Shown here piece after piece: positions 1,547 to 34,643 of a stretch of 64,000 nucleotides of DNA. Source of the stretch: Synechococcus sp. PROS-9-1 (lineage in GTDB: Bacteria; Cyanobacteriota; Cyanobacteriia; PCC-6307; Cyanobiaceae); NCBI RefSeq assembly GCF_014279775.1, contig NZ_CP047961.1, positions 558,001-622,000 of the forward strand. Reading direction: 5' to 3'. The first letter of the stretch is position 1. The number at the start of each line of letters is the position of its first letter. The translations under genes and the position numbers were made by a program. The notes beneath the pieces were generated by a model. The model saw nothing but the letters and a program-made list of their open reading frames with translations. It ran no database searches and was not told the origin of the DNA.

Positions 1547-1557
1547 GGCGGTCCCCT

Positions 1558-7402: not shown

Positions 7403-7425
7403 AGGAGCCCTTTAGGGGCCCCATC

Positions 7426-7450: not shown

Positions 7451-7494
7451 GGTAGATCGCTCATTCGCGAGGGTGTTGATTAGACCAGTGTTGA

Positions 7495-8481: not shown

Positions 8482-8777
8482 GAGGCTGGAATTATTTTCT
8501 AGAAATTTAATTGCCATCACTGGCACTTCATTCCAGCTTCAGGCCTTATTAAGAGTTCGATGTCTGTTGATGTGGTTTTGGCTCAACCGATCCGATCATT
8601 TTTTGGCTTCCAATCAACACTTGTGATCTGTCGCTTTTGACGTGCGCTTTGATCACTTTCTCCCCGGCTGCTGTTTAGGCAGAGTCTGAAGAGCTGGATG
8701 TTGGCTCCAACCAGCCGCTGTGAGAATCCCTGTGAGCGAGAGGCTTGACCTTGACCAACGCAGGATCCGCTGCGTTT

Positions 8778-11425: not shown

Positions 11426-11660
11426 GGCGTTGATGCGATCTACCTAAAGGCTATTCAACGGTCTGTTGTGAAGGGTGCTTGCTATGGCTGTTTGACGTAT
11501 TGGTTTGAACCATCGTGACTGTGAAGGATTTGATCACCCATTTATCTTGCTGACTTAACTGCAGGCCTCTGTGAATCGAGTTTGCTTTTAAAAATGCGTA
11601 GTCCCGGTTGTGCAATTCGGCTTACGTCGTCTTAGCGTTTAGGCAGTGTTGTGATGTGTC

Positions 11661-11918
11661 ATGAAGGAAAACCAGGTTCAGCAAAGCGATAAGGATGAAT
11701 GGAGAGATCATGTTCTTCAGGAGATTGTTGGGTTTTTAAGTAAGAACAAAGAAGAGATTCATGGGCGTTACCTTGATCAACGTCGCGGCCAGCTTCCAAG
11801 AGATTTCATCGAAGAGAAGGGCTTAATGGATTTTGAATTGGCGATCACATTTTTGGAAGATAAGCCCAAGGGTATGGGCTTAGGTCTTGGCTTTTTTAAG
11901 GCAACTCTGATTCGCTGA
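11661..11918 (+). CDS. Hypothetical protein, 85 residues
   Basis: Small soluble protein (MKENQVQQSDKDEWRDHVLQ...). It is charged and helical in its first 65 residues and ends KGMGLGLGFFKATLIR. It has an ATG start, stands alone on the plus strand and opens the AT-rich segment. I do not recognise the family. Confidence 0.55.
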   Translation: MKENQVQQSDKDEWRDHVLQEIVGFLSKNKEEIHGRYLDQRRGQLPRDFIEEKGLMDFELAITFLEDKPKGMGLGLGFFKATLIR

Positions 11919-12056
11919 ATTTGATAATGTGGCGGCAATTATGCATTCTTTTGCCCCTAGTTTGAAAGTTTTTGTATTTGATTGCTGACTAGCTTGGACT
12001 CAACTCTTCATTCGGTCGAGCTTTGACGAGAATCAATGTAAATCACAAATAAGTTT

Positions 12057-12520
12057 TTAAGTTTCTTGTTTTGCTTGGCATCCGATTGAGCGGCATATAG
12101 CGGATTTGAATTGATAAAACTGATTAATAACTAACTGCTCTTCAATCTCGTCGTTTGAAATTAACGGAATGGTATGAACGATGAGTAGTGGAACTGGCCT
12201 GGAGAAATCTTGATTGCCACATAAATAAGTTTTTGCACCTAGCAAAAGCTTTTCAATTCTTTTTTAAAGAGCTCGCAATTATTTCGGTCTTCGAACAAAA
12301 TCTGTGCTTTAAATTGAATATCGCTATCGTAATTCTCGCCAATATTTTTGTTGCTTGTATTGCCCCATACCCCTTCTATCATCCACCACATTCGGCCATT
12401 GTGAATCCACACTGTTGCCAACTCTGGTGCACTCTCTTTGAAGATGTTGAGTTGGCATTCAAAGTCTTTGCCTTTGAAAATTTTGCAAATTAGCCTACTT
12501 GTAAGCTTGCTAGCTTGCAC
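12057..12520 (-). pseudogene. Hypothetical gene split by a -1 frameshift at an A-run
   Basis: Two overlapping minus-strand frames join into one plausible protein. The first, from a GTG at 12520, runs about 87 residues (contains TVWIHNGRMWWMIEGVWGN) to a run of six A (minus strand; 12260-12265). Reading one base back there continues as KRIEKLLLGAKTYLCGNQDF and ends at 12057, giving about 153 residues. Without the shift the first frame stops a few codons later. One lost A, a sequencing error or slippage at the A-run would all explain it. The family is not recognised. Confidence 0.45.
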
Positions 12521-12721
12521 GATAATTTATGCAGATTTTATTTATCCAAGACTATCTCCCCCTGGCTGGACATGTCTTACGGATGAGGTATATGTGTGTT
12601 CATTCAACACTATGCACATGCAAAATATTTTCTTTGTGTATCACATGTCACGACGAAGAGAACGGAAAGAGGCAAAAATCTAATTTCATTTATTCCGTTA
12701 TCAATCTGCATTGGCTGCTTC

Positions 12722-12910
12722 ATGAATGTTGGTGTTGAGGGTTGGTTGACTGATGGTTGTGGTTACGGGGCGATGGCAAATGGATAGTCAGAAATGCTGA
12801 AAAGTAGAAAATATCTGTCCCGAAAGGATGGAGAGAAGAAATGGAATCGCCTGATTGAAATTGGTTGGACTCAGGTTGCACCCGTCTGGGCTGAAGCGAT
12901 TGAGCCATAA
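12722..12910 (+). pseudogene. DUF1651-type small protein interrupted by an in-frame TAG
   Basis: From the ATG at 12722 the frame reads MNVGVEGWLTDGCGYGAMANG, then TAG at 12785, then continues in the same frame as SEMLKSRKYLSRK...WNRLIEIGWTQVAPVW to a TAA at 12910. The LKxRxYLxR...W...GW...PxW pattern matches the picocyanobacterial DUF1651 family. The intact relative at 46796-46951 has MPNGEPALLK where this one has MANG-stop-SEMLK. The stop therefore replaces a conserved Glu, consistent with a single G-to-T change. Confidence 0.55.
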
Positions 12911-13000
12911 ATCCTTGAAATGCTTAACTTCACCAGATCTTCTTGATCCATAGCCGGTTGAAGACGATTTAGTGCACAGTGTTGTTTTTAATAGTGATTC

Positions 13001-13402
13001 CTAAAACCCCAAGCCTGTAAATAGTTCTTGATGCACTACATAGGTGTGGTAAAGAGTGATGCCAGCATATGGCGATAACTCGACGCCATCTCTAGTGAAA
13101 GCGATATCGCAAAGTAAGTTTCCTTTCCAGGCGATAGAATCTTCATTTTGTTCAGCAGACCATTCCATTACTGCAGCGAAGTGATCAGGAATAACAGCCC
13201 CTATCTTTTCACATGCGTCTGCAAGCCTGCAGAGTGCAGGGGGTTTAGAAGGAAGGGATAATCCTTTCCTCAATACAAGTTCATCGATCACTCCTGTATA
13301 TCGTACAAAGTCAATCAATGCTTCTTCTTCTTCCGTTAATGAGGAGTTAGATATTGCTCGATCAAATTGTTCAGCTGTTAAAATAGGCCTGCGCATGAAC
13401 AT
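13001..13402 (-). CDS. Hypothetical protein, 133 residues
   Basis: Soluble protein with no signal or membrane segment (MFMRRPILTAEQFDRAISNS). The N-terminal half is acidic and helical (LTEEEEALIDFVRY); the C-terminal half is mixed, ending in YHTYVVHQELFTGLGF. ATG codons at 13402 and 13396 are both possible. It lies isolated in the AT-rich segment; no family is recognised. Confidence 0.6.
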   Translation of the reverse strand: MFMRRPILTAEQFDRAISNSSLTEEEEALIDFVRYTGVIDELVLRKGLSLPSKPPALCRLADACEKIGAVIPDHFAAVMEWSAEQNEDSIAWKGNLLCDIAFTRDGVELSPYAGITLYHTYVVHQELFTGLGF

Positions 13403-13681
13403 CTCTATCCAATCAATTTAATATTCAGTTTAATCATGGTCATGGTGCTAGAGACTTTGATTCTTATCATCTTTTATACATGCTTTTCTGTTTGAGAACG
13501 GGGCTTGTTGCCCCGATCTGTAGCTTCATTCCACCGGTTTGCCACATGTCCTGGCCGGCTGTTGGTGTCAGCACTCGTTCTGATTCGTTTAGGGGGGTTA
13601 GCTGCTCATGAAAAGGATTATGTGCTCTTAATGGCATTACCAGTCAATTCTTGCCAAAGTAACAGCATTAAGGTGAACGCC

Positions 13682-13843
13682 ATGGGCTTGCGCAAATCGG
13701 TTGAAAAAGCAATGACTTACTTGCTTGGTGTCGTTGATGAGTACTGGGCAATGCGCGAGCCTGGTCAATATGGCGAAAAGGAACCCGAATGTCCGATTAC
13801 TGTTGAAAACCAGGCATGTGCAAGCGAGAGTGCATCGCATTAA
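13682..13843 (+). CDS. Small hypothetical protein, 53 residues
   Basis: The ATG at 13682 gives MGLRKSVEKAMTYLLGVVDE followed by YWAMREPGQYGEKEPECPIT and a short tail. The frame is open further upstream to a TTG at 13505, but that extension looks unlike protein. Amphipathic helix first, polar tail after. Function unknown. Confidence 0.4.
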   Translation: MGLRKSVEKAMTYLLGVVDEYWAMREPGQYGEKEPECPITVENQACASESASH

Positions 13844-13949
13844 GGTCTAGGCTGCACAATGGCATCAGGTTCATGGATCAAAAAGATTTGTTAGGCCACT
13901 GTGGACCTCTGATTTGAGCCCTATAATTATTTGATATAGAGAATTTATT

Positions 13950-14213
13950 TTGAATCAGGCTAGTATTCGTCGATTTATATTTACTTTGATCACGGGTTAC
14001 CTAGCTATTTTTGGCGTTCAGCAGATTCCATACGAATTCCCAAATCAATGGGCTGTATTGATCCCTGTTTTGATCGTTGTATATATCATAACGGTATGGC
14101 TGGATGGAGTTTTCTTTAAGGACGAGGAATCATCTAATCAACGTACCACTGTTGCTACGAAGAGCAAGGTGAAGAAATCATTGAAGAAATCAAATGGATT
14201 TGGTGAATCATAA
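13950..14213 (+). CDS. Small membrane protein, 87 residues
   Basis: From a TTG at 13950 (MNQASIRRFIFTLITGYLAI). Two hydrophobic segments (about 8-24 and 34-52: WAVLIPVLIVVYIITVWL) are followed by a Lys/Ser-rich cytoplasmic-type tail (KSKVKKSLKKSNGFGES). No ATG is available before the first hydrophobic segment. No family is recognised. Confidence 0.5.
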   Translation: MNQASIRRFIFTLITGYLAIFGVQQIPYEFPNQWAVLIPVLIVVYIITVWLDGVFFKDEESSNQRTTVATKSKVKKSLKKSNGFGES

Positions 14214-14338
14214 GCTTGAAGATCTTGTATAGTTTGCATTAGGATAACTCATTTTTCGATTATCCCAAGGCAAGACTTGTTTTCTTCTTTGATATATTTA
14301 TTTTATAGAGATGTTCTAGCCAGACCGAGTCGCAGGCG

Positions 14339-14452
14339 ATGAATCAGTCAACAATTCATGAGACAGAGTTCACTTCACTCTATCGGCTTTTGAGAATGGA
14401 ATTCAATGATTGGGGTGACATTTCCTTCAGCCGTAGGCTCAAGAACCGTTGA
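14339..14452 (+). CDS. Possible very small protein, 37 residues
   Basis: An ATG at 14339, preceded by a weak AGG-type ribosome-binding site, opens a frame reading MNQSTIHETEFTSLYRLLRM then EFNDWGDISFSRRLKNR. It is the only candidate in the 14214-14554 gap. Its composition is protein-like, but the length is too short for confidence. Confidence 0.25.
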   Translation: MNQSTIHETEFTSLYRLLRMEFNDWGDISFSRRLKNR

Positions 14453-14554
14453 GGTATTGCTTTATGTCTTAAGACGTGGATTGATTTTTTAATAGAAACG
14501 ACTTTGCAAAAATCAAGTTATTTCTTGGAACTAATGATTCTAAAAACGTATTGA

Positions 14555-14887
14555 CTACTCCTCAGCTTTCATGGATTGTCTTTTGAAGATAAACATTAGT
14601 AGTCCTCCAAGTTGGCTAGTCTCGATCAATTCCCATCGCTCTCGGCCAAGGAGATTCAAAACAAATTGGAGCTGAGATGCTGGATGTTTTGGAAGACGTG
14701 GCTTCCCGTATAGCTTCGGGAATTCCTTTTTAATGAATTCAGGACTTAGCAGTCCCTGTAATTTTTGGCTTGCTTCCTCAGGGCTCGACGTTTGGGTTGG
14801 TTTTTTATTAACTATATTGATATGAATAACTCGATACTCCCATAACATATCGTTGTCATGTTGGATTGATTGTTCTTTGTTGTCCAT
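14555..14887 (-). CDS. DUF4177-like hypothetical protein, 110 residues
   Basis: ATG start at 14887. The first strand reads MLWEYRVIHINIVNK, and the end reads LNLLGRERWELIETSQLGG...FIFKRQ. The WEYRV start plus the closing GRERWELI...FKR element is typical of DUF4177-type small proteins. An insertion with PKLYGKPRLPKHPASQL lies between them. Function unknown; isolated gene. Confidence 0.55.
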   Translation of the reverse strand: MDNKEQSIQHDNDMLWEYRVIHINIVNKKPTQTSSPEEASQKLQGLLSPEFIKKEFPKLYGKPRLPKHPASQLQFVLNLLGRERWELIETSQLGGLLMFIFKRQSMKAEE

Positions 14888-15785
14888 TTATGGATTGTGC
14901 TTGTGGCTAACCTTGACTTTTTTACCTTAGGTGCGCGTCTTGTATTTTGCAATCCTTATTTCAGTTTAATCTGAAGCGTGAGATACTATTGAGCTTCTGT
15001 ATGGATATGATTTTCCCACTTAATTTGCTGATTGCTCTTTATTCTTAATGCAATATTAACAATAGGCGGTTTTATTCCCTCTCGCTGGTGTCGCGTAGGT
15101 GCTTTTGTTCGTGAAACATGATTCCTGCTTGGGATGTTCTCTGTTGTGGGCTTGTCATGGATGGTTGAGGATCCTCATCCAACGAGCGATTGCTCACGCG
15201 TTTTTTTCGTGATGGAGTTTTGAGCTGCCGGGGATGCAGTGCAAAGAGGGCTCATGAGCGAGATTCTCTAGTCCCCTGATAGAAGTGTTTGTTAAGCGAG
15301 AGGCTGCTGGGAAACGATCGAGATTGTTAAGACCTATGCTTTCATTAGAAATGCTGATCATTTGGGTGTTGGAGGATTTTGGTGCAGAACTGCTCATCGC
15401 TGAACAGGCTTCTGTGTCTGCTGGCGTCGAGGCCAGCTTTGGGTCGCTCAAGAAGATCTGAGCCTGTTTCAATCTCTAAGACTCATTCCTGTGACTGAGT
15501 TTTGTCAGGATCGCGTGGAGGGGGTTGATGTGATTTTTCTAAATCATAATCGTATTTCTTTGTGTAGCTCGGTATATCAAACTTGAGCGTTTAGGCGCTG
15601 CTCGTCGTTCTCTGATTTTTCTAAAAAACTGTTTATTTTGCTTCGTTATTTTGGGGTCTATACAATGCAATACAAAGCAATATCGACAGATTAGGTAACC
15701 CTCTACTAGGTTTTTTCAGAACAAGTTTTGGCAAAAGCTGCTGCTTGTAATCAAGAACAGTTTTCATCTCATTCCTTGACTCATC
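14888..15785. other. AT-rich gap upstream of the giant repeat gene
   Basis: About 900 bases without a convincing gene. A 92-codon minus-strand frame (15194-15472, TTG start) has Ser/Asn/Ala-rich, low-complexity coding and is doubtful. A TATACAAT-like element at about 15659-15666 could be a -10 box for the downstream gene. GATTTTTCTAAA occurs twice (about 15530 and 15616). Confidence 0.4.
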
Positions 15786-18700
15786 ATGACCTCTTCTGCC
15801 AAGCCACTACAAAATGATTTTCAATCCTTTGCTGAGGATGCTGTAGGCAAGGTTGCCGGCCTTCAAGATATTCAAGCTCTGGTAGACGCTGATGCCACTA
15901 TTCAGGCTGAATCCAGCTCGGCTTCGTCTGCAAGTTCTGAGAACGTTTCAGGAGACAGTGCTGCTGTCTCAACCACAGAGTCCAATCAAGCGATTGGACT
16001 CTCTAACGAATCAAATGCTGAAGCATCAATCGATGTGAAGGCTGATGCAGGCCTTCAAGGTGTTGCTTCATCTACGGCATCCTCATCTGCTTCTACAAGC
16101 AACGGAATTGCCGAAGCCTTCACCGAGATGGGAGAAGGCTTGGGAGTTTCGCTCACGAAGCTTGATGTTGGAGGTGAGCTCTCCGGCCTTGGTCAGTCAA
16201 GTAACAGCCTCAGTGCTGATTCGGAAAGTGTTACTGGTGATTCAACGGCTACATCTGGACTGACTGGTTCAATCCAGGGCTTTAATTCTGAAATTCAGAA
16301 CACGATTGATTCCGATGCATCGATTCAAGGTCTAGCTCAATTAGTTAACAACGCATCTGCTGCAAGTACAGGTACTTCAAGCGCAGCTAGTAGTGCTACT
16401 GCGATTGCTGATGCAGGCAAACTCCAGGGTGCTGACCTTGGCATCAACACAGATATTGGTGGTGTTGCGGACATCGGCGGTCAGGTTGATTTCAACGCAA
16501 CTGCTGCTTCCAGCAACGTCACTGGTTCTGCTATCGCCGGGGCTGCTCTTGGTGATGTGAAAGATGGTTTCGCGGTTCCAACCTCTGCCTCTTACTCCCC
16601 CACGACTGGTGTTGATCTTGGCGACCTAACCGAGAGCGGTACTGGCCTTGCCCAAGGCCTGGTCACAGGAACTGATGGCACAAGCACCAATGGGGTGCGT
16701 AGCTACGGAACAGACATCAAGTCCGACGGCACACTTCAAGGTTTCGCCAATCTCACTAATACAGCTGACGCTTCCACCACTGATGGTGCTGCAGCCGCTG
16801 GTGCATACGCCAACACAATCGACGGCGCCAACCTTGGCGATGTCAACATCGGTGGCGTTGGTTCACTGACCGGTTCTGCAAACTTTGCCGGTTCCGCTTC
16901 CTCCTCCAACGTTGATGATTCCACAACTGACATCTCGGGTGCTGTCTCTCAGCTGAATGACATCGATGGCTTAGAAGCCATCTCTGGCCTGAACGTTGCC
17001 TCCGATGCAGGCATCAACGGCCTTGCTGCTGTTGATCTTGGATCATCTGCAGAAAGCACCAGTGGCGGATATGCCTTCGCTAGTGCTCAAGCAGGCACTC
17101 TCCAAGGTGCTGAGCTCGGTGTTACCGATATTGGTGGTGTCGGTTCCGTTGCTGGTGAAACCAGCCTGACCTCCGGTGCTGCTTCCAGCAATGTCTCGGG
17201 ACAGGCCATCAGCCTTAGTCAGCTCACTACTGCAGAAGGCTTGCAGCAAACAGGAGAATTGGATGTCAAGAGCGATGCCTCCGTTCAAGGTCTCGCCAAC
17301 GTCTCAAGCTCTGCTGACGCCGCAACCACCGCTGGTACAGCAACTGCCAACGCTCTTAGCACCACCATTAATGGTGCTGATCTGGCTGCAGGAAACCTCG
17401 ATATTGGTGGCATCGGCTCTATCGCTGGTCAAGCCAACTTCGGGCTCTCTGCTTCCTCCAGCAACGTCAGCGATCCTTCAACTGCCACCGCTGATTCAGA
17501 AAGCGCAACCGGCTTGATCGGTCAGAAAACTGATACCAGCGGCACTCCTGATGTTTTCGGTATCGATGTTGCCTCCGACTCCGGTCTCTCCGGTATGGCC
17601 ATCGGTTCACTATCAGCCGATGCTTCTAGTACTGCTGGTGTTGCTACCGCAATTGCTGGTCAGGGCGACAAGGCTATCGGTGCTCAGCTTCCCTCACTGA
17701 ATGTGGGCGGAATCTCCGACCTCACCGGTGCTGCTCAGCTTGATTCCTCAGCCACTGCTTCCAATGTGGGAGGAGTTGATGAAACTGATGCAACAGCTAA
17801 AGCTGGACTTGGTCAAGACGTCACTGGTTTGACGACTGGTCTCGACGAAACAGTGAATCTTGCTACTCCGCCTGTAAATAGCATCGGTGTAACTGGGACG
17901 GACTTCAGTTCCGCAGCATTCAACATCGACATTGCCTCAGATTCGAATCTGACCGCTCAGGGCTTCAGCAACCTCGATGCTTCTGCCTCCAGCACCTCCG
18001 GAGACGCCACCGCTGCCGCTGGTTACGGTTACACCAATGCTGCTGATGCCTCCGTCACCGGTATCGCATCCGGTATGAGCATCGACGTTGGCGGTGTCAG
18101 CAACCTGATGGCGCAAGCCCAAGGCACCGCTGATTCCTCTGCTTCTTCCGTCACCGGAGGGGCTGGCTCCGGTTCCGGGATGGACGCGATGGGCATCGCG
18201 GATCTCCAGATGAACGTCAGCTCCGATTCTGATCTGAGCTCCACCTCTGCTGTGATCGGTAGTGCAGATGGCGAAAGCACCTCTGGTGCAGCGACAGCTG
18301 ACATTGACTTTGATGCCACCGGCATCAATGGCATCGACATGAACATCGGTGGCATCGGCAGCCTGGCTTCTACCGCCAGCGTGAATGGTTCCTCTGATGC
18401 CACCAATGTGGGTGCAGCGCCAGTTTTGGATGATGTTGCCACCAATGGTGTAGACGAGTCTGCATTCGATCTTGGTTCTACGGCCACAGGCGACCTTGAC
18501 GCCACTGGCCTCAACTCAGCCCATCTGTTCAGCTCCTCCGATAGTGATGTCTCCGGCATCGCAACCATCGATAGCAGCATCAACGCCGCAAGCACAGCTG
18601 GCGACGGCTTGGCAGACGCTGATTTCGATGCTGATGGCATCACAAGCCTCGAAATGGGTGCTGGTGGATTGTTTGATCTCGCTGGTCAGGCACAGGTGAA

Positions 18701-19163
18701 CGCTGATGTGAGCGCTAGCTCCGTCTCCGGCAAAGCCGATGCCTTCTCTGGGGATGACAACCTCGACGGAAGCATCAGCACCGAGGCTTCCACCATCAAA
18801 GGTCTCTCAGCAATTGAAGCTGATGGCGCCAGCGATGGCACCATCCTTGGCACCGCCTTCGGAGACTTCAGTACCTCAGCTGAATCCACAGGCGCTAACG
18901 CAACAGCCAACGCTGCTCAGAGCCTCACAGGTATTGATTCCGCCAACATCGATTTCGGTGGCACCGGTTCGATCAGTGCCATCGCTCAAGACAGCAACTT
19001 CGTGGAAGCCAGCTCCGTAATGGGTGATGCTTCCGCCACCGCCACTGTTGATGCCATCGGCCTCAACGGCGGTGACATCCATATCGCTAGCGATGCAGTT
19101 CTCACCTCCAGCGTCTCTGTTGATTCGTCTGCTGATTCCAGCTCCGTCGGCGGTGCTTCTTGA
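15786..19163 (+). CDS. Large Ala/Ser/Gly/Asp-rich tandem-repeat protein, 1125 residues
   Basis: Built of roughly ten degenerate repeats of 84-131 residues. Each has a start like IxxxSDxxLQGLA, a Ser/Ala/Thr stretch (ADAxTTxGxAxA), a core like INGADLxxxNIGGVGSL and an end like SASSSNV. The GG core recurs near bases 16453, 16846, 17127, 17400, 17702, 18090, 18343, 18658 and 18954. It is strongly acidic, has very few Lys/Arg, and I see no Cys or Trp. There is no N-terminal signal peptide or membrane helix and no RTX nonapeptides. The repeat style suggests an elongated beta-rich or adhesin-like protein, but cell location and role are unknown. Confidence 0.75.
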   Translation: MTSSAKPLQNDFQSFAEDAVGKVAGLQDIQALVDADATIQAESSSASSASSENVSGDSAAVSTTESNQAIGLSNESNAEASIDVKADAGLQGVASSTASSSASTSNGIAEAFTEMGEGLGVSLTKLDVGGELSGLGQSSNSLSADSESVTGDSTATSGLTGSIQGFNSEIQNTIDSDASIQGLAQLVNNASAASTGTSSAASSATAIADAGKLQGADLGINTDIGGVADIGGQVDFNATAASSNVTGSAIAGAALGDVKDGFAVPTSASYSPTTGVDLGDLTESGTGLAQGLVTGTDGTSTNGVRSYGTDIKSDGTLQGFANLTNTADASTTDGAAAAGAYANTIDGANLGDVNIGGVGSLTGSANFAGSASSSNVDDSTTDISGAVSQLNDIDGLEAISGLNVASDAGINGLAAVDLGSSAESTSGGYAFASAQAGTLQGAELGVTDIGGVGSVAGETSLTSGAASSNVSGQAISLSQLTTAEGLQQTGELDVKSDASVQGLANVSSSADAATTAGTATANALSTTINGADLAAGNLDIGGIGSIAGQANFGLSASSSNVSDPSTATADSESATGLIGQKTDTSGTPDVFGIDVASDSGLSGMAIGSLSADASSTAGVATAIAGQGDKAIGAQLPSLNVGGISDLTGAAQLDSSATASNVGGVDETDATAKAGLGQDVTGLTTGLDETVNLATPPVNSIGVTGTDFSSAAFNIDIASDSNLTAQGFSNLDASASSTSGDATAAAGYGYTNAADASVTGIASGMSIDVGGVSNLMAQAQGTADSSASSVTGGAGSGSGMDAMGIADLQMNVSSDSDLSSTSAVIGSADGESTSGAATADIDFDATGINGIDMNIGGIGSLASTASVNGSSDATNVGAAPVLDDVATNGVDESAFDLGSTATGDLDATGLNSAHLFSSSDSDVSGIATIDSSINAASTAGDGLADADFDADGITSLEMGAGGLFDLAGQAQVNADVSASSVSGKADAFSGDDNLDGSISTEASTIKGLSAIEADGASDGTILGTAFGDFSTSAESTGANATANAAQSLTGIDSANIDFGGTGSISAIAQDSNFVEASSVMGDASATATVDAIGLNGGDIHIASDAVLTSSVSVDSSADSSSVGGAS

Positions 19164-19186
19164 GCCATTCGGACGAATGATCAAGG

Positions 19187-19225
19187 GCCCACTTGCTTTT
19201 TGCAATGAGAAGGAAGTGGGCTTAT
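19187..19225 (+). terminator. Hairpin after the giant repeat gene
   Basis: 8-bp stem GCCCACTT / AAGTGGGC with a 19-base loop, followed by TTAT, 23 bases after the stop codon. The T-run is weak. Confidence 0.5.
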
Positions 19226-19423
19226 CACCTAGAACGAGATTAAGATCAGCGATGCCTAAACGCCACAGAAGATTGGACTCTTTGGGTGGATCGTCCTAGC
19301 GCTTAGAGGGCGAAGCATGTGTTCAGCTTGCTTGCCAGGAGCATGTATTTGCGGTGCTTCATCAATCGTTTCTTCTTATTGATTTGCCTTCTGCTTGTAA
19401 AGAGCAGGGGGCAAATCAACCTC

Positions 19424-19461
19424 AAAAAGGAGTAGCTACATCTAGGGCTATTCCTTTTTTT
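19424..19461. terminator. Bidirectional terminator hairpin
   Basis: AAAAAGGAGTAG pairs with CTATTCCTTTTTTT across a loop of about 12 bases. A-run on one side and T-run on the other make it usable from both strands. Confidence 0.6.
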
Positions 19462-19560
19462 ATGTGAATTAAAGGGAATGGGTATGTCCCTCCCGAAGGC
19501 ATGAGAGAATACGGCTCTTTCCTTCCAGAACTGTTTGCTTTGATCGTTCATCAAGCAATG

Positions 19561-19600
19561 AAAAACCCTTGCTATCTCCCGTTTGGCAGGTAGCAAGAGT
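19561..19600 (-). terminator. Rho-independent terminator of rpsD
   Basis: On the minus strand CTTGCTA pairs with TAGCAAG (16-base loop), followed by GGTTTTTC, about 55 bases after the rpsD stop. Confidence 0.7.
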
Positions 19601-19653
19601 TGATGAAAATATGGGTTAGATGTATTTGAAAATCCAGCTGCAGAGCTGAACTC

Positions 19654-20262
19654 TTAGACCTTTCTGGAGTAGTACTCCACCACCAGCAGTTCGTTGATCT
19701 CAAGGGCGACCCATTCGCGTTCAGCGCGGCCAATCACTTTGGCGCTGAGCTTGGGTTTATCGAGTTCGAGGTGGGGAGGCACGTTGGCCAATCCTGGGAA
19801 TTGCAGATTCGCTTCGGCAAGCAGTTTGCTGCATTTGCGTTCGCGAATGGCGATCACATCACCAGATTTACACTGATAACTGGCGATGTCGGTGACCCGT
19901 CCGTTCACGGTGACGTGGCCATGATTCACCAATTGACGTGCACCTGGCACGGTTGGGCCAAAGCCAATGCGGAAACAAACATTGTCGAGACGATTCTCGA
20001 GCAGTTTGAGCAGGTTGGTTCCTGTTGATCCTTCCTGTGCACGCGCTTTCTTCACGTAGCGCACAAGTTGACGTTCAGAAACGCCGTAGTTGAAGCGAAG
20101 CTTTTGCTTTTCTTCTAAGCGGATTGCGTATTCGGAGCGCTTGCGACGGGCTTGGCCGTGCTGACCGGGTGGATAGGACCGTTTTGCGGCCTTCCGGGTG
20201 AGACCAGGTAGGTCTCCCAAGCGCCGCGTGATCCTCAGGCGAGGGCCGCGGTATCTGGACAT
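19654..20262 (-). CDS. rpsD: 30S ribosomal protein S4
   Basis: 202 residues, full length ([20 protein letters not shown]). It binds 16S rRNA early in 30S assembly. The S4 RNA-binding domain is visible as [12 protein letters not shown]...[15 protein letters not shown]. Alone on the minus strand with its own terminator; divergent from yidD. Confidence 0.97.
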
Positions 20263-20342
20263 AGGAAAGAAGAGATGAAATTGGGTTCGCGCTCAAGCGA
20301 GAATCCGTCATGCTGGGTTTGTGGCCCGCACTGCGGAATCTC

Positions 20343-20609
20343 ATGCACGAATCAACCATCTTATCTGCCGGCAGCACAAATCCATTCAATCGGCTTGTAA
20401 GCGCGATTTTGCTTGCACTGATCAGCTTTTATCGCCGTTGGATTTCCCCGATGATCGGCCCTCGCTGTCGGTTCATTCCAACCTGCAGTGCCTACGGCAT
20501 CGAGGCGATTGAGCGCCATGGGCCTTGGCGTGGCGGTTGGTTAACTCTGCGTCGGTTGCTGCGCTGCCATCCCTTCACCCCCTGCGGCTGTGACCCCGTC
20601 CCCGATTGA
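20343..20609 (+). CDS. yidD: Membrane protein insertion efficiency factor YidD
   Basis: YidD family signature: [34 protein letters not shown] and [10 protein letters not shown] with the conserved cysteines. A small membrane-associated protein that assists YidC-dependent insertion. ATG codons at 20310 and 20343 are both in frame; I prefer 20343 (88 residues) because it lies closer to the conserved block. The end overlaps the next gene by 20 bases. Confidence 0.88.
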
Positions 20610-20898
20610 TTCCAGGCGATTGTTGCTCTATGGCAGGGCTGGTTGTTGTTTGTGTGAGGGGCTGGAACAGCGCTTGCGAGCTCTCAATCTTGAGCAAGAG
20701 AGTCTCCACCTGAAGCTTGTTGTTGTCGATATCGACGCTCCCGGCTGTGCAGCGCCATTGCGAGCGCGTTATGACCTTGAGGTGCCGGTTTTGGTCTTGG
20801 AGGAAACGGAGCTTCCTCGCGTGTCCCCCAGGTTGAGTGGGGATGGATTGCGCAATTGGTTGCAGCGGGTTTGCGCCACTGCACCAGGTTCGGATTAG
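20590..20898 (+). CDS. Glutaredoxin-like (DUF836 family) protein
   Basis: 102 residues from a GTG inside the end of yidD. Thioredoxin-fold start [19 protein letters not shown] with a CxxC-type active site (CLC preceded by Cys), then VVDIDAPG and the cis-proline region EVPVLVLE. Likely a thiol-disulfide oxidoreductase of small DUF836 type; no substrate can be inferred. Translationally coupled to yidD and followed closely by murE. Confidence 0.8.
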
Positions 20899-20923
20899 AA
20901 CGTCCATCTGTGGTGCCCCAGCG

Positions 20924-22435
20924 ATGACCCAGACACTCCACGCCTTGCTGCATTCGGTGGGTTTGCCTGTGCCACTGGGCTTGGCTGATGCCGTGATCGA
21001 ATCGATCACCTGTGATTCCCGGTGCGTGGGACCTGGGAGTGTGTTCATCGGTCTTCCCGGCGGGCGGGTGGATGGAGGTAGCTTCTGGACCCAGGCTCTT
21101 GCTGATGGAGCTGCAGTGGTCCTGATTGGCTCAGCAGCAGCAGCGGCTAAACCTCCTGAACAGAGTGACGCTGTGGTGGTGGTTTCTGATCCAGTGGCTC
21201 GCTGGGCTGGTGAGTTGGCGGCAGCTTTTTGGAATCACCCCAGTGATCACATCGGTTTGATTGGGGTCACGGGCACCAACGGAAAAACCACCACCACCCA
21301 CCTGATTGAACATTTGAGTTCGGCCTGTGGACGACCTTCCGCCCTGTTTGGAACCCTTCTGAATCGTTGGCCTGGCCACAGCGTGACGGCAACTCACACC
21401 ACAGCCGTGGCTGATCGTCTCCAGGCTCAGCTTGCTGAGGCGTTTGCCGCTGGCGCGCAGTTAACGGCCATGGAGGTGAGCTCCCACGCCCTTGATCAGC
21501 ATCGGGTGGCTGGATGCCGTTTTTCCGGCGCTGTGTTTACGAATCTCACCCAGGACCATCTCGATTACCACGAGACGATGGCGTCTTATTTCGAGGCCAA
21601 GGCTCGACTGTTTGCTCCACCTTTGGTGGCTGATCGTGGGGCTCAATTTGTAGTCAATGTGGATGATCCTTGGGGCAAACAACTAGCGGAGCGGTTGGGA
21701 GATCGCTGTTGGCGGAGTTCGTTGTCTGTGGGCTCAGCAGATGCAGAACTGACGATGTCAGATTTGCTGATGGGCTCTTCTGGGGTTGAAGGACGCCTTT
21801 CCAGTCCGATGGGTGAGGGCACGTTCCACTCCCCACTGCTGGGTCGCTTCAATGTGATGAATCTGCTGCAGGCGGTTGGGGTCTTGCTTCAGCAAGGTCT
21901 CCCTTTGGAGTCGCTTCTCACAGCCATAAGCACATTCAGGGGCGTTCCTGGTCGGATGGAACGGGTTGTTGTGGACGCCAAGGGAAGTGATCTGCCCACG
22001 GTCTTGGTGGATTACGCCCACACTCCTGATGGCTTAAGCAGCGCACTGAAGGCGTGTCGCCCCTTCGCGAAGGGCAAATTGATTTGTGTGTTTGGTTGTG
22101 GTGGTGATAGGGATCGAGGCAAGCGTCCGCAGATGGCTGCGATTGCAGCAGAGATTGCTGATGCTGTGGTGGTGACCTCTGATAATCCACGCACAGAAGA
22201 TCCTCAGCAAATCCTGGATGACGTGGTTCGTGGAATACCAAGCGGCACTGATTTGGCTGTGACAATGGATCGTTCTGCAGCGATTGCAGGAGCAATTCAA
22301 GATTCAGGTCCTGGAGATCTCGTTCTTGTTGCTGGGAAAGGTCATGAGGATTATCAGATTTTAGGAACCCAAAAAGTACATTTTGATGACCGCGAACAGG
22401 CTCTGAATGCTCTGAATCACAAGCTCAATCAATGA
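20924..22435 (+). CDS. murE: UDP-N-acetylmuramoyl-L-alanyl-D-glutamate--2,6-diaminopimelate ligase MurE
   Basis: 503 residues from the ATG at 20924. It adds meso-diaminopimelate to the peptidoglycan precursor in the cytoplasm. The ATP loop is [13 protein letters not shown] and the substrate-specifying motif is DNPRTEDP, which marks meso-DAP rather than lysine enzymes. The frame is open upstream, but the extension overlaps the glutaredoxin-like gene and is not conserved-looking. Confidence 0.95.
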
Positions 22436-22555
22436 ATTTCTTGCTTGGATAAATGTAAAAAGTTTCTCCAAAAATTGAGAACATCCACAGCTGTGCTGCT
22501 CTCTTGCTGTTGTTACTGCTTGGCTTTGATCCCTTTAGGGGCTTCATCATGGGGG

Positions 22556-23794
22556 TCATATCAGCTCTTCAAGGGCATCCACCAAGCGCCTGAGTTCAGT
22601 TGCTTCGGTGGTGATGTGGGTACAGGCTCTTAGGCAAATGGGCTCTTCCAGGTTGCGGATCCAGATTCCTTTGCTGCCGAGGATTTGAACGATTTCAGCA
22701 GGAGTTTGCCCAGATGGATTGTTGAGTTGGAAGCTCACCAAACCTGCGGGGGGTTCCCCTTCGAGCAAGGGAGTGGCTCCGGGATGCTCATTTAGTTGCC
22801 CCCAGAGATTACGGCTCAGGGATTGGATGGTTTGGAGACGCTCCTGCTCACGTCCCTCACCGGCTAACAAGCTCAATGATTGACGCAGCCCTGCCATCAG
22901 CGGCACACAGCTCGTTGCAATTTCAAAGCGTCTGCTGTCATGGTGAAAGGGGTCTGGATCATGGATCACGGCGCGGGTTTCATCGCGCAGACTGCGCCAG
23001 CCAATCAGCGTTGGATTGGCTTGATTGAGGATTCTTTCTGACAAGGCCACGCCTCCAAGTCCCTCGGGTCCGCAGGCCCATTTGTGCCCAGTAAATGCAT
23101 AAATATCAGCCGCCTGCGCTGCAGCTTCCACAGGGATTTGCCCCATGCTTTGGGCTGCATCGACGAGCAGAAATGGTTGCTGAGCATGGTGACGAAGCTG
23201 GTCTGCTACCGCAGGGATTGGCATCAGCTGTCCGGTGTTCCATAGCAGATGGGATAGCACCACCACTTTGGTGCGTGGTTGTAGAGAGTCCTCTAAAGCT
23301 TGAAGGACACCTGCATCGGTGTTGTGTTGTGCCTCGCGTCCTTGCCTGAATTGTTGAACAGGGAGGTTGTCGACCTCCAGGTGCTCCCGTCTGGCAAGTT
23401 CATGGCATGCGGCAACGACTCCTGGGTGCTCGCAATCACTGATCAAGAGGCGATCACCGGCTTCAAAGGGAAGTCCCCAAAGGGGCAGAACGCAACCGCT
23501 GGTTACGTTTTCGGTGAGAGCGAGGCGGTGGGGTGCCACACCACATAAACGACCGAGCAATGCACGTGTTTTGTTTGTTTCCGCGCTGATATAGGGCCAT
23601 ACATCCGTGGTGAAGGGGCCCAGTTCTTGGATGCGCTGCCAGCTTGTGGTCATGGCCTCCAACGAAGGCGTTGGCAACGGTCCCTGACCGCCGTAGTTGA
23701 AGTAGGTCTTGTTGCCCAGTGCCGGACATAGGTCGCGGAGATTATTCCTGTTTGCGTGGGTCAAGGTGGTATTTCGAAAGGTTCCTGGGGCCAT
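22556..23794 (-). CDS. Class-V aminotransferase-fold PLP enzyme (cysteine desulfurase / cystine lyase-like)
   Basis: 412 residues from the ATG at 23794. PLP lysine in FTGHKWACGPEGLGG, preceded by VDAAQSMGQIPV; the N-terminus has TYFNYGGQGPLP. The GHKW-CGP-G-GG pattern resembles cyanobacterial C-DES (cystine C-S lyase) and isopenicillin-N epimerase-like proteins more than IscS/SufS. I see no SufS-type catalytic-cysteine loop. Convergent with murE; exact substrate uncertain. Confidence 0.8.
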   Translation of the reverse strand: MAPGTFRNTTLTHANRNNLRDLCPALGNKTYFNYGGQGPLPTPSLEAMTTSWQRIQELGPFTTDVWPYISAETNKTRALLGRLCGVAPHRLALTENVTSGCVLPLWGLPFEAGDRLLISDCEHPGVVAACHELARREHLEVDNLPVQQFRQGREAQHNTDAGVLQALEDSLQPRTKVVVLSHLLWNTGQLMPIPAVADQLRHHAQQPFLLVDAAQSMGQIPVEAAAQAADIYAFTGHKWACGPEGLGGVALSERILNQANPTLIGWRSLRDETRAVIHDPDPFHHDSRRFEIATSCVPLMAGLRQSLSLLAGEGREQERLQTIQSLSRNLWGQLNEHPGATPLLEGEPPAGLVSFQLNNPSGQTPAEIVQILGSKGIWIRNLEEPICLRACTHITTEATELRRLVDALEELI

Positions 23795-24310
23795 CGTCAA
23801 AGCACGTGCTTACTACCAACTGCAGCGTGGTGTGCCTCGTGATTCTCAATCTCAAGTTGGCAAAAAAAAGTGGAAAGAGCCAGGCTTATGGCTTGCCCCA
23901 GACGGTGAAACACCCAATCCGGGATAGATTATGGCAGTGAAGGAGATGCTGGAGCTGAAGTGCCAACGGCGGCAAGCTCATACTCATCGCATCAGATAAG
24001 CTTTGATTGTTTTTGACAGGTCGGCTTAAAAAGTATCCGTACATTATCTATTGTCTCTTCAAGTTGAATGGATTGATACTTGCAAATTTTACCTGTTAAA
24101 TTCATCCAAGACAGGTCTCTCATGCAAGCTAAATGAGTGACAAGTATTCGATTTAAATAGGCGCTTGGTGCGCTGACTGGAGCAAGCCAGAAACAGTCGC
24201 TGTTAATTATCACAATACGATGAACCTGGACCAACGCAAGAGATAGAGTGTTGCCTCAGGCACCACGTACTGCGCTGGTGGCTTTTTTACCTCGCTGAAG
24301 GTGCTCAAGC
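23795..24310. other. Intergenic region with one orphan terminator
   Basis: About 500 bases between two genes. Small frames on both strands (for example 23992-24234 minus, TTG start) lack a clear start or protein character. The one firm feature is a plus-strand terminator at 24259-24288. Confidence 0.4.
24259..24288 (+). terminator. Strong plus-strand terminator with no gene in front of it
   Basis: CACCACG pairs with CG-C-TGGTG (one bulged C, 5-base loop), followed by GCTTTTTT. The nearest plus-strand gene upstream is murE, nearly 2 kb away with a minus-strand gene between. It may end a small RNA or act as an attenuator for the gene starting at 24311. Confidence 0.6.
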
Positions 24311-31381: not shown

Positions 31382-31918
31382 TCAGTAGTCAGGGTGATTA
31401 CCCCAACCATTCCAGTTTTGTAAATCATATAGCCAAAAATCTGGATTAGAGGCTAAGTAAGCTGACTTGGTCCAAGCAACAGTAGGAATACAAGCTCTCA
31501 TGTTAGACCAGTCATCGTTATATCCAGAGACACCAAAGGAGTCATAAGTAGGACATTGATGACCGGAATGTTGTGCAGGTGTAGGGTACATAAAAGTACG
31601 TCCACCACTACCACCATCTTCAATTTCAGAAATGATTCTAAAAGATCGAGAGATAGCAGAAGAGAACTGACCTGAGCCTTGTGTACAAGTAACTGTGTAA
31701 ACACTATCTTCAGGATCTGAGACAGCACATCCATTTGGAATAGAAGGAAGTTCTCCGGTAGCTTCCGCTTTACCAGCGTAAGTAACCGCTCGAGCTTCTG
31801 CTGCTGTTAGATTATCTGCTCGTTTCTGAGCAACAATAGGAGCGGTAGACATTTCAAGCACTGCAGGTGCTGCAGTAGCCATTACTGAAAGTCCAACCAT
31901 CGTACTTACTAAGTTCAT
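31382..31918 (-). CDS. Pilin-like protein without a leader peptide
   Basis: 178 residues beginning MNLVSTMVGLSVMATAAPAV, a hydrophobic helix matching mature type IV pilins from residue 1 but with Ser where pilins have Glu5. The globular part has four cysteines (NGCAVSD, VTCTQG, HQCPTY, RACIPT) and an aromatic C-terminus (LYDLQNWNGWGNHPDY). The ATG overlaps the pilA stop (ATGA). No leader ending in Gly can be built upstream in frame (SQWSC precedes the Met). Probably assembled with or beside PilA. Confidence 0.75.
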   Translation of the reverse strand: MNLVSTMVGLSVMATAAPAVLEMSTAPIVAQKRADNLTAAEARAVTYAGKAEATGELPSIPNGCAVSDPEDSVYTVTCTQGSGQFSSAISRSFRIISEIEDGGSGGRTFMYPTPAQHSGHQCPTYDSFGVSGYNDDWSNMRACIPTVAWTKSAYLASNPDFWLYDLQNWNGWGNHPDY

Positions 31919-32325
31919 GCAGGACCACTGGGAGTTGCAGTTTTACCAGGTGTGCCAGGGATGCCATCATCCATGGGTACAGTCCAACGGTCACCACCAC
32001 CGTCAACAATGAATGAACCAGTTTTTGTACAAGTGGTGGCTGAGTTAACAATGTCAGCGTCAGCTGCTGATGCAGCAAGGTTACCTTCAGTAGCAGTGCC
32101 ACCTATAAGTGCAATAGAGCAGGTCTTTGCGGCATTCAATGCAGTGGATTGTGCAGCAGCAGACTTTGCCCTGTCTTGTGCTTTAGTCAGCTGAGGGAGA
32201 GCTACAGCAGATAGGACACCGACAATTGCAACAACAACCATCAGTTCAATCAAGGTGAAGCCATTAGGCTTTTTACCTTTTTTGGCAAGGCGACGAGCAA
32301 GGATGGACTTGAGTTGAGTGTTCAT
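31915..32325 (-). CDS. pilA: Type IV major pilin PilA
   Basis: 136 residues from the ATG at 32325. The prepilin leader MNTQ...KKGKKPNG is followed by FTLIELMVVVAIVGVLSAVA, with cleavage after Gly22, Phe1 and Glu5 intact. The C-terminal part has two cysteines (KTCSIAL, TTCTKT) and ends in a Gly/Pro-rich tail. This is the pilus fibre subunit, processed by PilD. Upstream ATG/ATT codons to 32379 are in frame but would only lengthen the leader. Coupled to the following leaderless pilin. Confidence 0.88.
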   Translation of the reverse strand: MNTQLKSILARRLAKKGKKPNGFTLIELMVVVAIVGVLSAVALPQLTKAQDRAKSAAAQSTALNAAKTCSIALIGGTATEGNLAASAADADIVNSATTCTKTGSFIVDGGGDRWTVPMDDGIPGTPGKTATPSGPA

Positions 32326-32580
32326 TGGCCTTTTCTCTCGATTAATGTTTGGCATCTTTTGTGCCTGCCCATTAATCATCTCTCTTGCTTGTCTGTGGTG
32401 GCTAAGTGATTCCTAATAGCTTCCTGAGAACATTCTTAGTGGCTGTTTGCTCCTCCATCGTTCGTTCATGGTTACTGACTTCCATTGTTCCTTCAGCCAC
32501 TTTCTCTTCGAGCTGAAGGTTTTACGAACTGGATTCTGATGAAGAGGCCTCACTCTTCTTGAAAGAAGCTTTTCCAGTCC
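32326..32580. promoter_or_regulatory. Shared upstream region of divergent pilin operons
   Basis: 255 bases between pilA (minus) and the pseudopilin genes (plus). It must hold both promoters; I see no unambiguous -35/-10 pair or known operator. Confidence 0.35.
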
Positions 32581-33108
32581 GTGGAACGCTTCACCCAGTT
32601 GTGTTTGCCCCCTTTGAGTTGTTCGTTGGTTGTCCGGCCAAGATCACAGGCTGGATTTGTGTTGCCCTTGGCGCTCACTGCTTCAGCGGTTTTGCTACTG
32701 GGCAGTGCTTCGGTTCATACGCTCAGCCTGCAGAAGCGCCTGCGGGTCCATGCCTCTAGTTATAGAGAGCAAGTTGCTGATCAGTTGCGCTCTGCGGCGC
32801 AGGCATTTGCAGCCGCTGCTAGTGGGGAAGACGCCTGTTTTCTGCAGTGGCCATCATTCGAATGGTCTGGTGGTGCTCAGGTTTGCTCAGGTTCTGATCC
32901 CTCCGGGTTGAGTGCTGGTGTGGTGGGCGAGATGCCCTGGATGTTGCTCGATTGGAGGCCAAGCAATGAAAGCGGGCAGTTGAGCTTGCAATTGGGAGAC
33001 GGCCGAACCGGGAACTTCCGTCTTGCGCTTGATCCTCTTACTCCTGCTGTACTCGATATCAGTGAGGTGCAGCTGCAGGCCCAAGTTCCTCAGCTGGAGG
33101 CTGAGTGA
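32581..33108 (+). CDS. Pseudopilin-like protein with prepilin leader
   Basis: 175 residues from a GTG. The leader ends RSQAG, then FVLPLALTASAVLLLGSASV, a PilX-like pilin helix in which position 5 is Leu rather than Glu. It has a short globular domain with two cysteines (DACFLQ, AQVCSG). First of four overlapping genes; probable minor pilin for pilus priming or DNA uptake. Confidence 0.7.
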   Translation: MERFTQLCLPPLSCSLVVRPRSQAGFVLPLALTASAVLLLGSASVHTLSLQKRLRVHASSYREQVADQLRSAAQAFAAAASGEDACFLQWPSFEWSGGAQVCSGSDPSGLSAGVVGEMPWMLLDWRPSNESGQLSLQLGDGRTGNFRLALDPLTPAVLDISEVQLQAQVPQLEAE

Positions 33109-33536
33109 TGACCTTGCTCGAAGTCGTGGTGTCATCTGTTGTGTTGGCCTCAAGCAGCACTGCCGCCCTCGGAGTGTGGAATCAGGCTGCTACTGAAGTT
33201 CAACGCGCCAACCAGTTGGATGAGCTTGCCCTTCAGATGGAGACGGCGCGGATTGCGACGGATCGTTGGCTTCAGTCGGATGCGGCAGCGTCTGTCGTGA
33301 TCGATTCAAGCTCGCCTGATTGCAGGTTTAACCCTGAAGCTCTAGAGGCATCCGTTGCCGAGCGCTTGCCGCTTGGATCTGAAGTAAGCAGCCGTTGGAG
33401 TGCCGACCCGCAGGGCCTTGGCCACTGGCTTGAGCTCAGTGCTAGCTCTCAGCAAGCATCGCCTCCCTTGAAGAGACGTTTGCTGTTGTCCCCTGCTGCC
33501 TATGGCCTCTGCCAGCAGGAAGAGGTGCGCGCATGA
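33108..33536 (+). CDS. Pseudopilin-like protein, leaderless
   Basis: Begins MTLLEVVVSSVVLASSSTAA, a pilin helix with Glu retained at position 5 but no leader. The only possible starts are ATG 33108 or GTG 33105, because an in-frame TGA (33102-33104) directly precedes them. The start overlaps the previous gene's stop. The globular part has two cysteines (SPDCRF, GLCQQE). Minor pilin (PilV/GspI-like) by context. Confidence 0.7.
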   Translation: MTLLEVVVSSVVLASSSTAALGVWNQAATEVQRANQLDELALQMETARIATDRWLQSDAAASVVIDSSSPDCRFNPEALEASVAERLPLGSEVSSRWSADPQGLGHWLELSASSQQASPPLKRRLLLSPAAYGLCQQEEVRA

Positions 33537-34051
33537 GCTTGATCGAGCAGCTGATCGTGGTGAGCTTGGTAGGGCTGTTGGCGTCGATTCCGATCGTGAC
33601 GGGAGGCAGCGATCGTGATCAATTGCAGCTCGATGCCAGTGCGCGCCGCTTGCAGGTCGGTATCGATCGGGCCCGCAGTATTGCCAGGCGGGAGCAGACC
33701 GCTTGTGGGCTTTCCCTGAGCGAGGAGGGATTCATGGATCCCGATCAAGGGATCCTGCCAGCTTCTCTTCCCGCCTGCCCTGGGATTGGGATGGCCTTGC
33801 AGGAAGAACTTGAACAGGGGCCAATTGTGTTGAGCACGAACTTGCCGCCGTTGTTGCGCTTCACCGCCAATGGTTTGCTCCTGGATGGCGGGATTGCGGT
33901 GCTCCGTCATCAGCGCTTAGCGAAAGCCCGGTGCTTGGTGGTGAGTTTGCCCTTAGGCGTGAGCCGGATTGGCTCCTATCAGGATCCCCTTCCCTCAAAT
34001 GGAGGACGACTATTTAGTAGCCGTTGTTTGCCTGATGTTTACTTGGGCTAA
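33533..34051 (+). CDS. Pseudopilin-like protein (GspH/FimT type), leaderless
   Basis: Begins MSLIEQLIVVSLVGLLASIP, matching the mature end of GspH/FimT pseudopilins (xSLIE) with no leader. The ATG overlaps the upstream stop (ATGA); the in-frame residues before it (GRGAR) contain no ATG/GTG/TTG near enough to give a leader. About 172 residues with DRDQLQLDASARRLQVGIDR, typical of the FimT/GspH helix extension. Confidence 0.7.
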   Translation: MSLIEQLIVVSLVGLLASIPIVTGGSDRDQLQLDASARRLQVGIDRARSIARREQTACGLSLSEEGFMDPDQGILPASLPACPGIGMALQEELEQGPIVLSTNLPPLLRFTANGLLLDGGIAVLRHQRLAKARCLVVSLPLGVSRIGSYQDPLPSNGGRLFSSRCLPDVYLG

Positions 34052-34055
34052 GCCG

Positions 34056-34643
34056 ATGATCAAGCAATTGCCTGAAACAAGAATTGAGAAAGGGTTCACG
34101 TTGATCGAGCTGCTGCTTTCCCTCAGCCTTGGCAGCATGCTGTTTGTTGTGTTGTTGCAGCTGATTGGCGCTGATCTACGCCTTGGTAACAGCATGGCGA
34201 GTCGTTTGCGTGAATCAGCGCAGCAACGCCAAACTTTGGAGTTGATTCGTGGCGAGTTGGCGATGGGATCTGGCTGGACGGTTGATCCCACTCCGTCCCA
34301 TCAATGGTCCTGCGGCATGGCCGGCCGCCAGCCGGTGCTTGCCATTGGCTTGGATTCCAGCAACACCGAGGTTTCCTCTCAAACCATTGTTTACAGCGTG
34401 GGAGCTGCGCCTTCGCCAATTTGGCGCGGCCAGGTGTTGATGCGCTGCGGGCCTGCCTATGGACTTGATGGTGTGATCAGGCCAGGGGGAAAAGCACAAA
34501 ATCGCGTTCTGATTGATGGCTTACCCAAGGATGGGCCGGGGTTTCAAGCCCGGCAAGATCCTCAATCCAAAGTGCTGCACCTCGCGTTGGAGCAGGAGTC
34601 GTTGGCTGGTTCAAGTGGGCTGCGCTCTGCTGCAGTGTTTTGA
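34056..34643 (+). CDS. Pseudopilin-like protein (PilW type) with prepilin leader
   Basis: 195 residues from the ATG at 34056: leader MIKQLPETRIEKG, then FTLIELLLSLSLGSMLFVVL with Glu5. The globular part has two cysteines (WSCGMA, MRCGPA). It follows the previous gene by 4 bp and closes the four-gene pseudopilin run. The frame extends upstream to 33969 inside the preceding gene, which is unlikely to be used. Confidence 0.75.
   Translation: MIKQLPETRIEKGFTLIELLLSLSLGSMLFVVLLQLIGADLRLGNSMASRLRESAQQRQTLELIRGELAMGSGWTVDPTPSHQWSCGMAGRQPVLAIGLDSSNTEVSSQTIVYSVGAAPSPIWRGQVLMRCGPAYGLDGVIRPGGKAQNRVLIDGLPKDGPGFQARQDPQSKVLHLALEQESLAGSSGLRSAAVF

Follow-up and report, generated by a model that had tools for sequence, protein, structure and literature searches.

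Candidate minor pilins encoded without a leader peptide in Synechococcus sp. PROS-9-1 and related picocyanobacteria

A 64,000-nucleotide stretch of the Synechococcus sp. PROS-9-1 genome (family Cyanobiaceae; contig NZ_CP047961.1, positions 558,001 to 622,000; hereafter the window) encodes, beside pilA, four minor-pilin-like genes that form a plus-strand operon, K-I-H-J (32581-34643). We report that two of these genes, I and H, lack the leader peptide that the prepilin peptidase PilD would remove. Our interpretation, to which we give a probability of about 0.7, is that I and H belong to the minor pilins of the tip, or priming, group but have lost their class III leader and are translated directly in the mature form, bypassing the prepilin peptidase. 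The names K, I, H, and J follow gene order and resemblance to GspK/PilX, GspI/PilV, GspH/FimU, and GspJ/PilW, and rest in part on operon position.

In the excerpts available of the papers cited here, class III leaders have 6-26 residues and end in Gly, and shortened ones work in some systems (PMC4471445). Prepilin processing is treated as required before assembly, Glu5 forms a salt bridge with the N-terminal amine, and core minor pilins form a tip complex capped by a subunit that lacks Glu5 (PMC10191384). In cyanobacteria that lack PilD, prepilin left uncut is reported to damage the Sec translocons (PMC12288463, PMC8546353). With the type IV pilins and pseudopilins of these excerpts (PMC4471445, PMC10191384), I and H share a hydrophobic N-terminal helix, Glu5, and an H-I-J-K-like operon, but they have no leader, no Gly at position -1, and no cleavage site. 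No description of leaderless pilins was found in the open-access literature, judged mainly by titles and the first parts of abstracts, which leaves absence from print unproven. PMC9108774 concerns another protein.

Results

Start codons of I and H

An earlier note on this DNA had proposed that the proteins starting at 33108 (MTLLEVVVSS), 33533 (MSLIEQLIVV), and 31918 (MNLVSTMVGL) begin exactly at mature residue 1, with an in-frame TGA barring any leader for the first. For I (33108) this is borne out: the frame reads TGA (33102), GTG (33105), ATG (33108), and one codon at most, the GTG, could precede Met. The same holds for H (33533), where the 29 open codons upstream include no ATG, GTG, or TTG. 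The I start overlaps the K stop as TGATG, and the H start overlaps the I stop as ATGA. As neither gene has a translated leader, neither has a Gly/Ala cleavage site at -1. Judged from these reading frames, it is well supported that I and H of the window have no leader, and hence nothing for PilD to cut.

Leader state across the family

A profile search for I gave matches in 147 of 400 family genomes, in 18 of 59 genera; H was found in 27 of the 31 genus genomes (weakly in G009). We read 106 loci, one per genome, from 18 genera, 26 of them from the 31 genus genomes and 80 from the other 121 family genomes with a match. Synechococcus WH7803, UW105, and UW140 are among the six named loci. A leader was called where ATG, GTG, or TTG lay 5-40 codons upstream, with K or R between and G, A, or S at -1. 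By this automatic rule I is leaderless at residue 1 in 97 loci, doubtful in two, and leadered in five, and two fit neither class. After the rows were read, 99 of 106 I are leaderless (16 genera), six are leadered (genera g9 and g25), and one is undecided. The 99 include L068 and L100, whose candidate leaders are doubtful; the six are L134-L138, called automatically, and L139, assigned by its Gly-Phe although the rule found no leader there. The undecided row, L142 (G077), was set aside for its odd N terminus. It reads HCDSDEITMAML versus MNLIEITMAML in its sisters, which points to a damaged or shifted start.

Of 101 H rows that could be aligned, 13 lack a leader: eight in the window clade, L083, and two each in g25 and g19. 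Twelve of these were called automatically, and L139 was placed by hand against a doubtful candidate leader. Another five of the 106 H rows could not be aligned N-terminally, and 88 were counted as leadered. Eight of the 88 fail the automatic rule (L071, L073, L074, and L076, with four-residue leaders, plus L082, L114, L121, and L122), and five have both a leader and a start-type codon at residue 1. Orthologues that carry a leader, which the earlier note had named as telling against it, give a split result: 6 of 106 I and 88 of 101 H are leadered, but in other lineages.

The paralogue J of these loci served as a control, and none of its 102 alignable rows lacks a leader (in one, L134, the H gene was picked a second time). 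Set against 99 of 106 genomes for I, this rules out chance as the cause of the I start at residue 1. K has Gly at -1 in 97 of 103 alignable rows and Glu5 in none.

Several leaders are very short. In H of L073 and L074, MTRG precedes Phe, with a stop eight codons upstream, and in J of L077 MAG precedes Phe, with a stop 11 codons upstream; these leaders are shorter than the 6-26 residues given in the excerpt of PMC4471445. The start is equally close in H of L071, L076, and L080 and in J of L078, L079, and L081, where a farther start is possible. In L013 (G003), where a candidate leader is doubtful, and in L014 (G018), K is apparently leaderless, with Met at position 1 of an LLPLALS stretch and Ser at -1. 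In the g9 rows L134-L137, just six open codons precede position 1 of K, without a clear start codon.

The type IV pilus of WH7803 is described, in the excerpt of PMC7994388, as having PilA1 and five other pilin-like proteins, all with GFTLxE. By our reading of its genome (G002), WH7803 shares a leaderless I with the window but has a leadered H; its J is leadered too, and further leadered pilins lie nearby. Across 386 phylum genomes, a profile of I made from leaderless rows found 28 genomes of the family and, weakly, one from outside it, G437. A GspH match occurs in 23 genomes outside the family; the pilin N termini read in 18 of them included no leaderless form, all having Gly at -1, in a scan that required either Gly/Ala at -1 or, at +1, a start codon and may have missed other forms and the GspH of some loci. 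Weaker second I-like copies occur in five family genomes, and the pilins read there have Gly/Ala before Phe1; at L201 this check showed just another pilin.

Start signals at residue 1

Codon 1 of the 99 leaderless I genes is ATG in 94, GTG in four, and TTG in one, and GTG or TTG at an otherwise Met column fits a start codon. Gly stands at -1 in just three of the 99, compared with 82 of the 88 H that have a leader and 99 of the 102 J. Ala stands at -1 of the frame in 47 leaderless I, but upstream of the start codon. We looked for Shine-Dalgarno-like motifs 3-12 nt before codon 1, with 500 letter shuffles for comparison. Among the leaderless genes they precede 48 of 99 I (shuffle mean 15.4) and 11 of 13 H (shuffle mean 3.0), counts that no shuffle reaches. 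Leadered H (9 of 88; shuffle mean 15.5) and J (9 of 102; shuffle mean 16.2) show no such enrichment before residue 1. Of the 98 rows in which the K stop and I codon 1 were compared, 76 have an ATGA overlap and 20 share a single base; the offset is 0 in one, and another is mis-paired (1248 nt).

A leader might be hidden by a non-canonical start, a frameshift from the upstream gene, or mis-read sequence, and 80 of the 99 leaderless I do have over 10 open codons upstream in frame. We consider this very improbable, given the rarity of Gly at -1, motifs that point to codon 1, and consistency over 99 genomes. An in-frame stop lies within five codons in 11 of the 99, including six of the eight window-clade rows, and no conserved leader-like letters were found upstream in the I frame. 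A mis-called start for I and H was discarded on the in-frame stops, the loss of Gly-1, the placement of the Shine-Dalgarno-like motifs, and the orthologues; a frameshift was discarded because the upstream I frame has no conserved leader-like letters and because of the overlaps given above.

Pilin traits and family assignments

Glu5 is present in 97 of 99 leaderless I, the other two having Asp, and in all 13 leaderless H. The hydrophobic tract of ~20 residues is kept, with a mean of 0.05 (leaderless I) and 0.08 (leaderless H) Lys plus Arg in residues 2-24. All 99 leaderless I have at least two Cys after residue 30, which would suit a periplasmic domain. In the window clade, the mean pairwise ratio of nonsynonymous to synonymous differences (pN/pS; uncorrected proportions, 5 to 28 pairs) for codons 2-24 is 0.16 in I and 0.38 in H, and in H of two leadered sister clades it is 0.38 and 0.65. 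Judged by these ratios, codons 2-24 of I and H are under purifying selection. That I and H are decaying pseudogenes in lineages losing pili, as the 253 of 400 family genomes with no I match might suggest, is scarcely credible: mean pN/pS is 0.65 or less in all four genes and three clades, one state is kept in 16 of the 18 genera read, and L142 is the sole I row with an odd N terminus.

All 11 H members tested match PF12019 (GspH) at E<=0.01, and some orthologues, for example in G021 and G024, score over its cut-off. H resembles GspH/FimU (PF12019, TIGR01708) in these matches and in the leader that most H orthologues read possess, but window H is leaderless and falls under both cut-offs (16.9 of 21 bits for PF12019). 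I resembles GspI/PilV/XcpI in its place between K and H, its MTLLEVLV-type start, and a modelled helix followed by three strands, but it is leaderless and under the TIGR01707 (GspI) cut-off. Compared as profiles, I and PilA align across 44 columns with their first residues in register (probability 62%; E 7.7e-5, a single comparison). Two leadered g9 I proteins pass the TIGR02532 cut-off of 16.3 bits (19.2 and 18.5), and g25 I falls below it (15.1). The AlphaFold model of I has a helix at residues 3-56 and then three strands (pLDDT 78.6).

The host genome (G000), a single 2.27-Mb contig, encodes a PilC and an intact-looking PilD with CxxC pairs and GxGD, which we take to be the motifs of this peptidase. 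Its only GFxxxE-type matches to TIGR02532 at E<=10 are pilA, J, H, and I, which leaves K-I-H-J as the sole set of minor pilins observed. No second set was found with this model and threshold, and the model misses leaderless or Glu5-less forms. The N_methyl model finds only pilA and J in this genome; motif scanners would miss leaderless genes such as I and H.

Residue 2 and the fate of Met1

The earlier note had suggested that the N-terminal Met may stand in for the methylated first residue. Methionine aminopeptidase usually removes Met before Thr, Ser, or Pro, and Met is usually kept before Asn, Gln, or His. Residue 2 is Thr or Ser in window I and H and in all 13 leaderless H, and is Thr, Ser, or Pro in 54 of 99 leaderless I. 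Met removal should therefore be favored in window I and H, and Met should be kept in the 45 of 99 leaderless I with Asn, Gln, or His at position 2. None of the 196 leadered I, H, and J rows has one of these three residues there. On the trees the residue-2 class shows 11 to 14 changes, and strict retention of Met may therefore be unimportant.

Evolutionary history of the leader

A tree of 106 operons was built from the four mature proteins with residue 1 excluded; it is a quick tree with long branches. The leader state changes once for I and four times for H, with the same result after eight long branches are dropped, and the J tree alone gives two changes for I and three for H. The pattern reads as leader loss in I and H, not as a mis-called start, to the extent that such a tree can tell. 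The leader is taken as ancestral because the sister pilins and the loci outside are leadered, not from the tree itself.

The change in H can be followed in the DNA. In 14 of 18 genus sisters of the window clade, I stops in ATGA and a 7-codon leader plus Phe follows, 26 nt past the conserved GLC codon of I; in the remaining four the distance is 47 to 107 nt. In all eight window-clade rows, the I tail has seven residues rather than two, and the ATGA that closes it supplies the codon of H residue 1, 20 nt past the GLC codon. In the window lineage, the DNA from the GLC codon to H residue 1, where most genus sisters have the I stop, the H start, and a 7-codon leader, now encodes a longer I tail. 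Genes that keep a leader and already have Met at +1 (H in g47; loci L207-L209 of f19) are possible intermediates. Met at +1 with a leader ending in Gly also marks as possible intermediates L100, L101, and L143, which like L207-L209 are H orthologues or pilins in the GspH position.

Gene layout of the window

The coordinates of the operon and its neighbors are collected in Table 1. The start codon of K is GTG 32581 or an inner TTG. J is over the cut-offs of both N_methyl (24.7 bits) and TIGR02532 (21.8 bits). Elsewhere in the window, GC content is 41% in 12001-16000, compared with 53-61% in 1-12000 and 16001-24000, and a 1125-codon open reading frame (ORF) begins at 15786.

Table 1. Features of the pilin region (window coordinates).
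Feature	Position	Strand	Description	Basis or remark
Gene I	33108..33536	+	Leaderless, minor-pilin-like, GspI/PilV position, 142 aa, MTLLEVVVSSVVLAS...	Sequence, ORF reading
Gene H	33533..34051	+	Leaderless, GspH/FimU-like, 172 aa, MSLIEQLIVVSLVG...	Sub-cut-off PF12019 and TIGR01708 matches
GGAGG	33096..33100	+	Shine-Dalgarno-like, 7 nt 5' of I ATG	Sequence
GAGG	33522..33525	+	Shine-Dalgarno-like, 7 nt 5' of H ATG	Sequence
Gene K	32581..33108	+	PilX/GspK-like; leader end ...RPRSQAG then FVLPLALTASAV, mature from 32656	No Glu5
Gene J	34056..34643	+	PilW/GspJ-like prepilin; normal leader MIKQLPETRIEKG then FTLIE, mature from 34095	Profile matches
pilA	31915..32379	-	Normal prepilin; MNTQLKS...KKPNG then FTLIE from 32259, likely start 32325	Over N_methyl cut-off
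Third protein	31382..31918	-	Leaderless; MNLVSTMVGL, Ser5, Pro18, ATGA overlap with pilA	Pilin kinship unproven

The third protein

The protein at 31918 fared differently. It too has no leader, as eight open codons upstream contain no start codon, and it has no Gly-1; a start at mature residue 1 could not be established, since residue 5 is Ser rather than Glu and no pilin model matches. That it is a pilin made without PilD processing was not supported by the tests made. The earlier note had also placed all three genes in operons with normal prepilins. I and H lie on the plus strand with K (32581) and J (34056), and 31918 lies 3' of pilA on the minus strand.

Members of the 31918 protein family match in 5 of the 31 genomes of the genus and in 13 of the 400 of the family. 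In six aligned loci a leadered pilA lies upstream in each; Met1, Asn2, and Pro18 are invariant, and position 5 is Ser, or Thr in one. Its profile aligns only weakly with PilA (hhalign probability 14%), and its single-sequence structure model is unusable (pLDDT 34). In two relatives, L147 (G028) and L148 (G008), the N-terminal half is kept and long Ser-rich low-complexity tails replace the GHQCPTYD...NGWGNHP domain. There is an even chance that 31918 is a non-pilin membrane partner of PilA with its own C-terminal domain, situated where WH7803 has PilE. The absent Glu5, the invariant residues, the weak pilin kinship, the narrow distribution, and matches to the C-terminal part without the N-terminal half in G309 and G227 speak for this; a hydrophobic N terminus followed by a likely amphipathic stretch, conserved Cys, and the place behind a leadered pilA speak against it.

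Discussion

If I and H are minor pilins translated in the mature form, their production and assembly could proceed as follows. Ribosomes finishing the upstream gene may restart at the ATG that overlaps its stop; the overlap is observed, and coupled translation is the presumed consequence. The restart ATG is the codon of mature residue 1, so that at the sequence level I and H are encoded as the product that PilD would otherwise release. The first ~20 residues would serve as an uncleaved N-in/C-out anchor, inserted via the signal recognition particle and Sec. The free alpha-amine of Met1, or of Thr/Ser2 after Met trimming, may replace the cleaved, methylated N terminus, and Glu5 could then dock the protein into a tip complex with K and J. 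I and H would thus join a K/J/PilA filament without PilD. We speculate that scarce priming subunits without a leader may be spared competition with abundant PilA for PilD.

Several observations weigh against this interpretation. The start, topology, Met retention, and pilus incorporation of I and H are all predictions from gene sequence. Some in-frame upstream ATG, GTG, or TTG occurs in 39 of the 99 leaderless I rows, two of which (L068 and L100) fit the leader rule. Operon position and motif are the grounds for assigning I to GspI: window I scores 12.8 of 44.35 bits against TIGR01707 (E 0.12), none of 16 I members matches any NCBIfam model at E<=0.01, and a one-codon longer form of window I matches XpsI at E 0.0097. 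The model of I is poor at residues 1-20 (pLDDT 51-53), and a Foldseek search with it against the PDB gave no match at E<=0.001. In structure comparison, pseudopilins appear at Z 4.6-5.0 among unrelated chains, including a chain of an XcpGHIJK model (5.0) and one of an EpsI-EpsJ complex (4.6). Finally, without leader charges the positive-inside rule weakens the case for N-in/C-out topology, most for H, whose mean net charge at residues 25-50 is +1.6. A search for compensating charges past the helix gave a mean of -0.74 in leaderless I, but a range from -1 to +2 in the six leadered I rows.

Alternatively, leaderless I and H could be membrane-anchored former pilins that aid assembly from outside the filament, as a chaperone or priming platform. 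Such a role would suit proteins with no leader and no cleavage, whose incorporation is a prediction, and the constraint on residue 2 appears relaxed in leaderless I, as seen from the Asn/Gln/His counts above. We think it unlikely, as Glu5 and the helix show about the same conservation as they do in pilins with a leader, the Cys residues are kept, and no second minor-pilin set was seen in the host genome to do the job.

Taken as minor pilins that bypass PilD, I and H would mean that some subunits of a type IV filament can do without this peptidase. The odds seem even that picocyanobacteria make core tip subunits already mature by translational coupling, with priming uncoupled from PilD cutting and N-methylation, and that repeated leader loss (about once in I, about four times in H, and perhaps in K of one genome pair) is a general route to this state. 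Type IV pilins are defined by a leader that PilD removes, and both the leader and its removal are regarded as necessary for assembly. Leaderless minor pilins in most genera examined, beside leadered sisters, would offer a natural test of the roles of the leader, its cleavage, and N-methylation.

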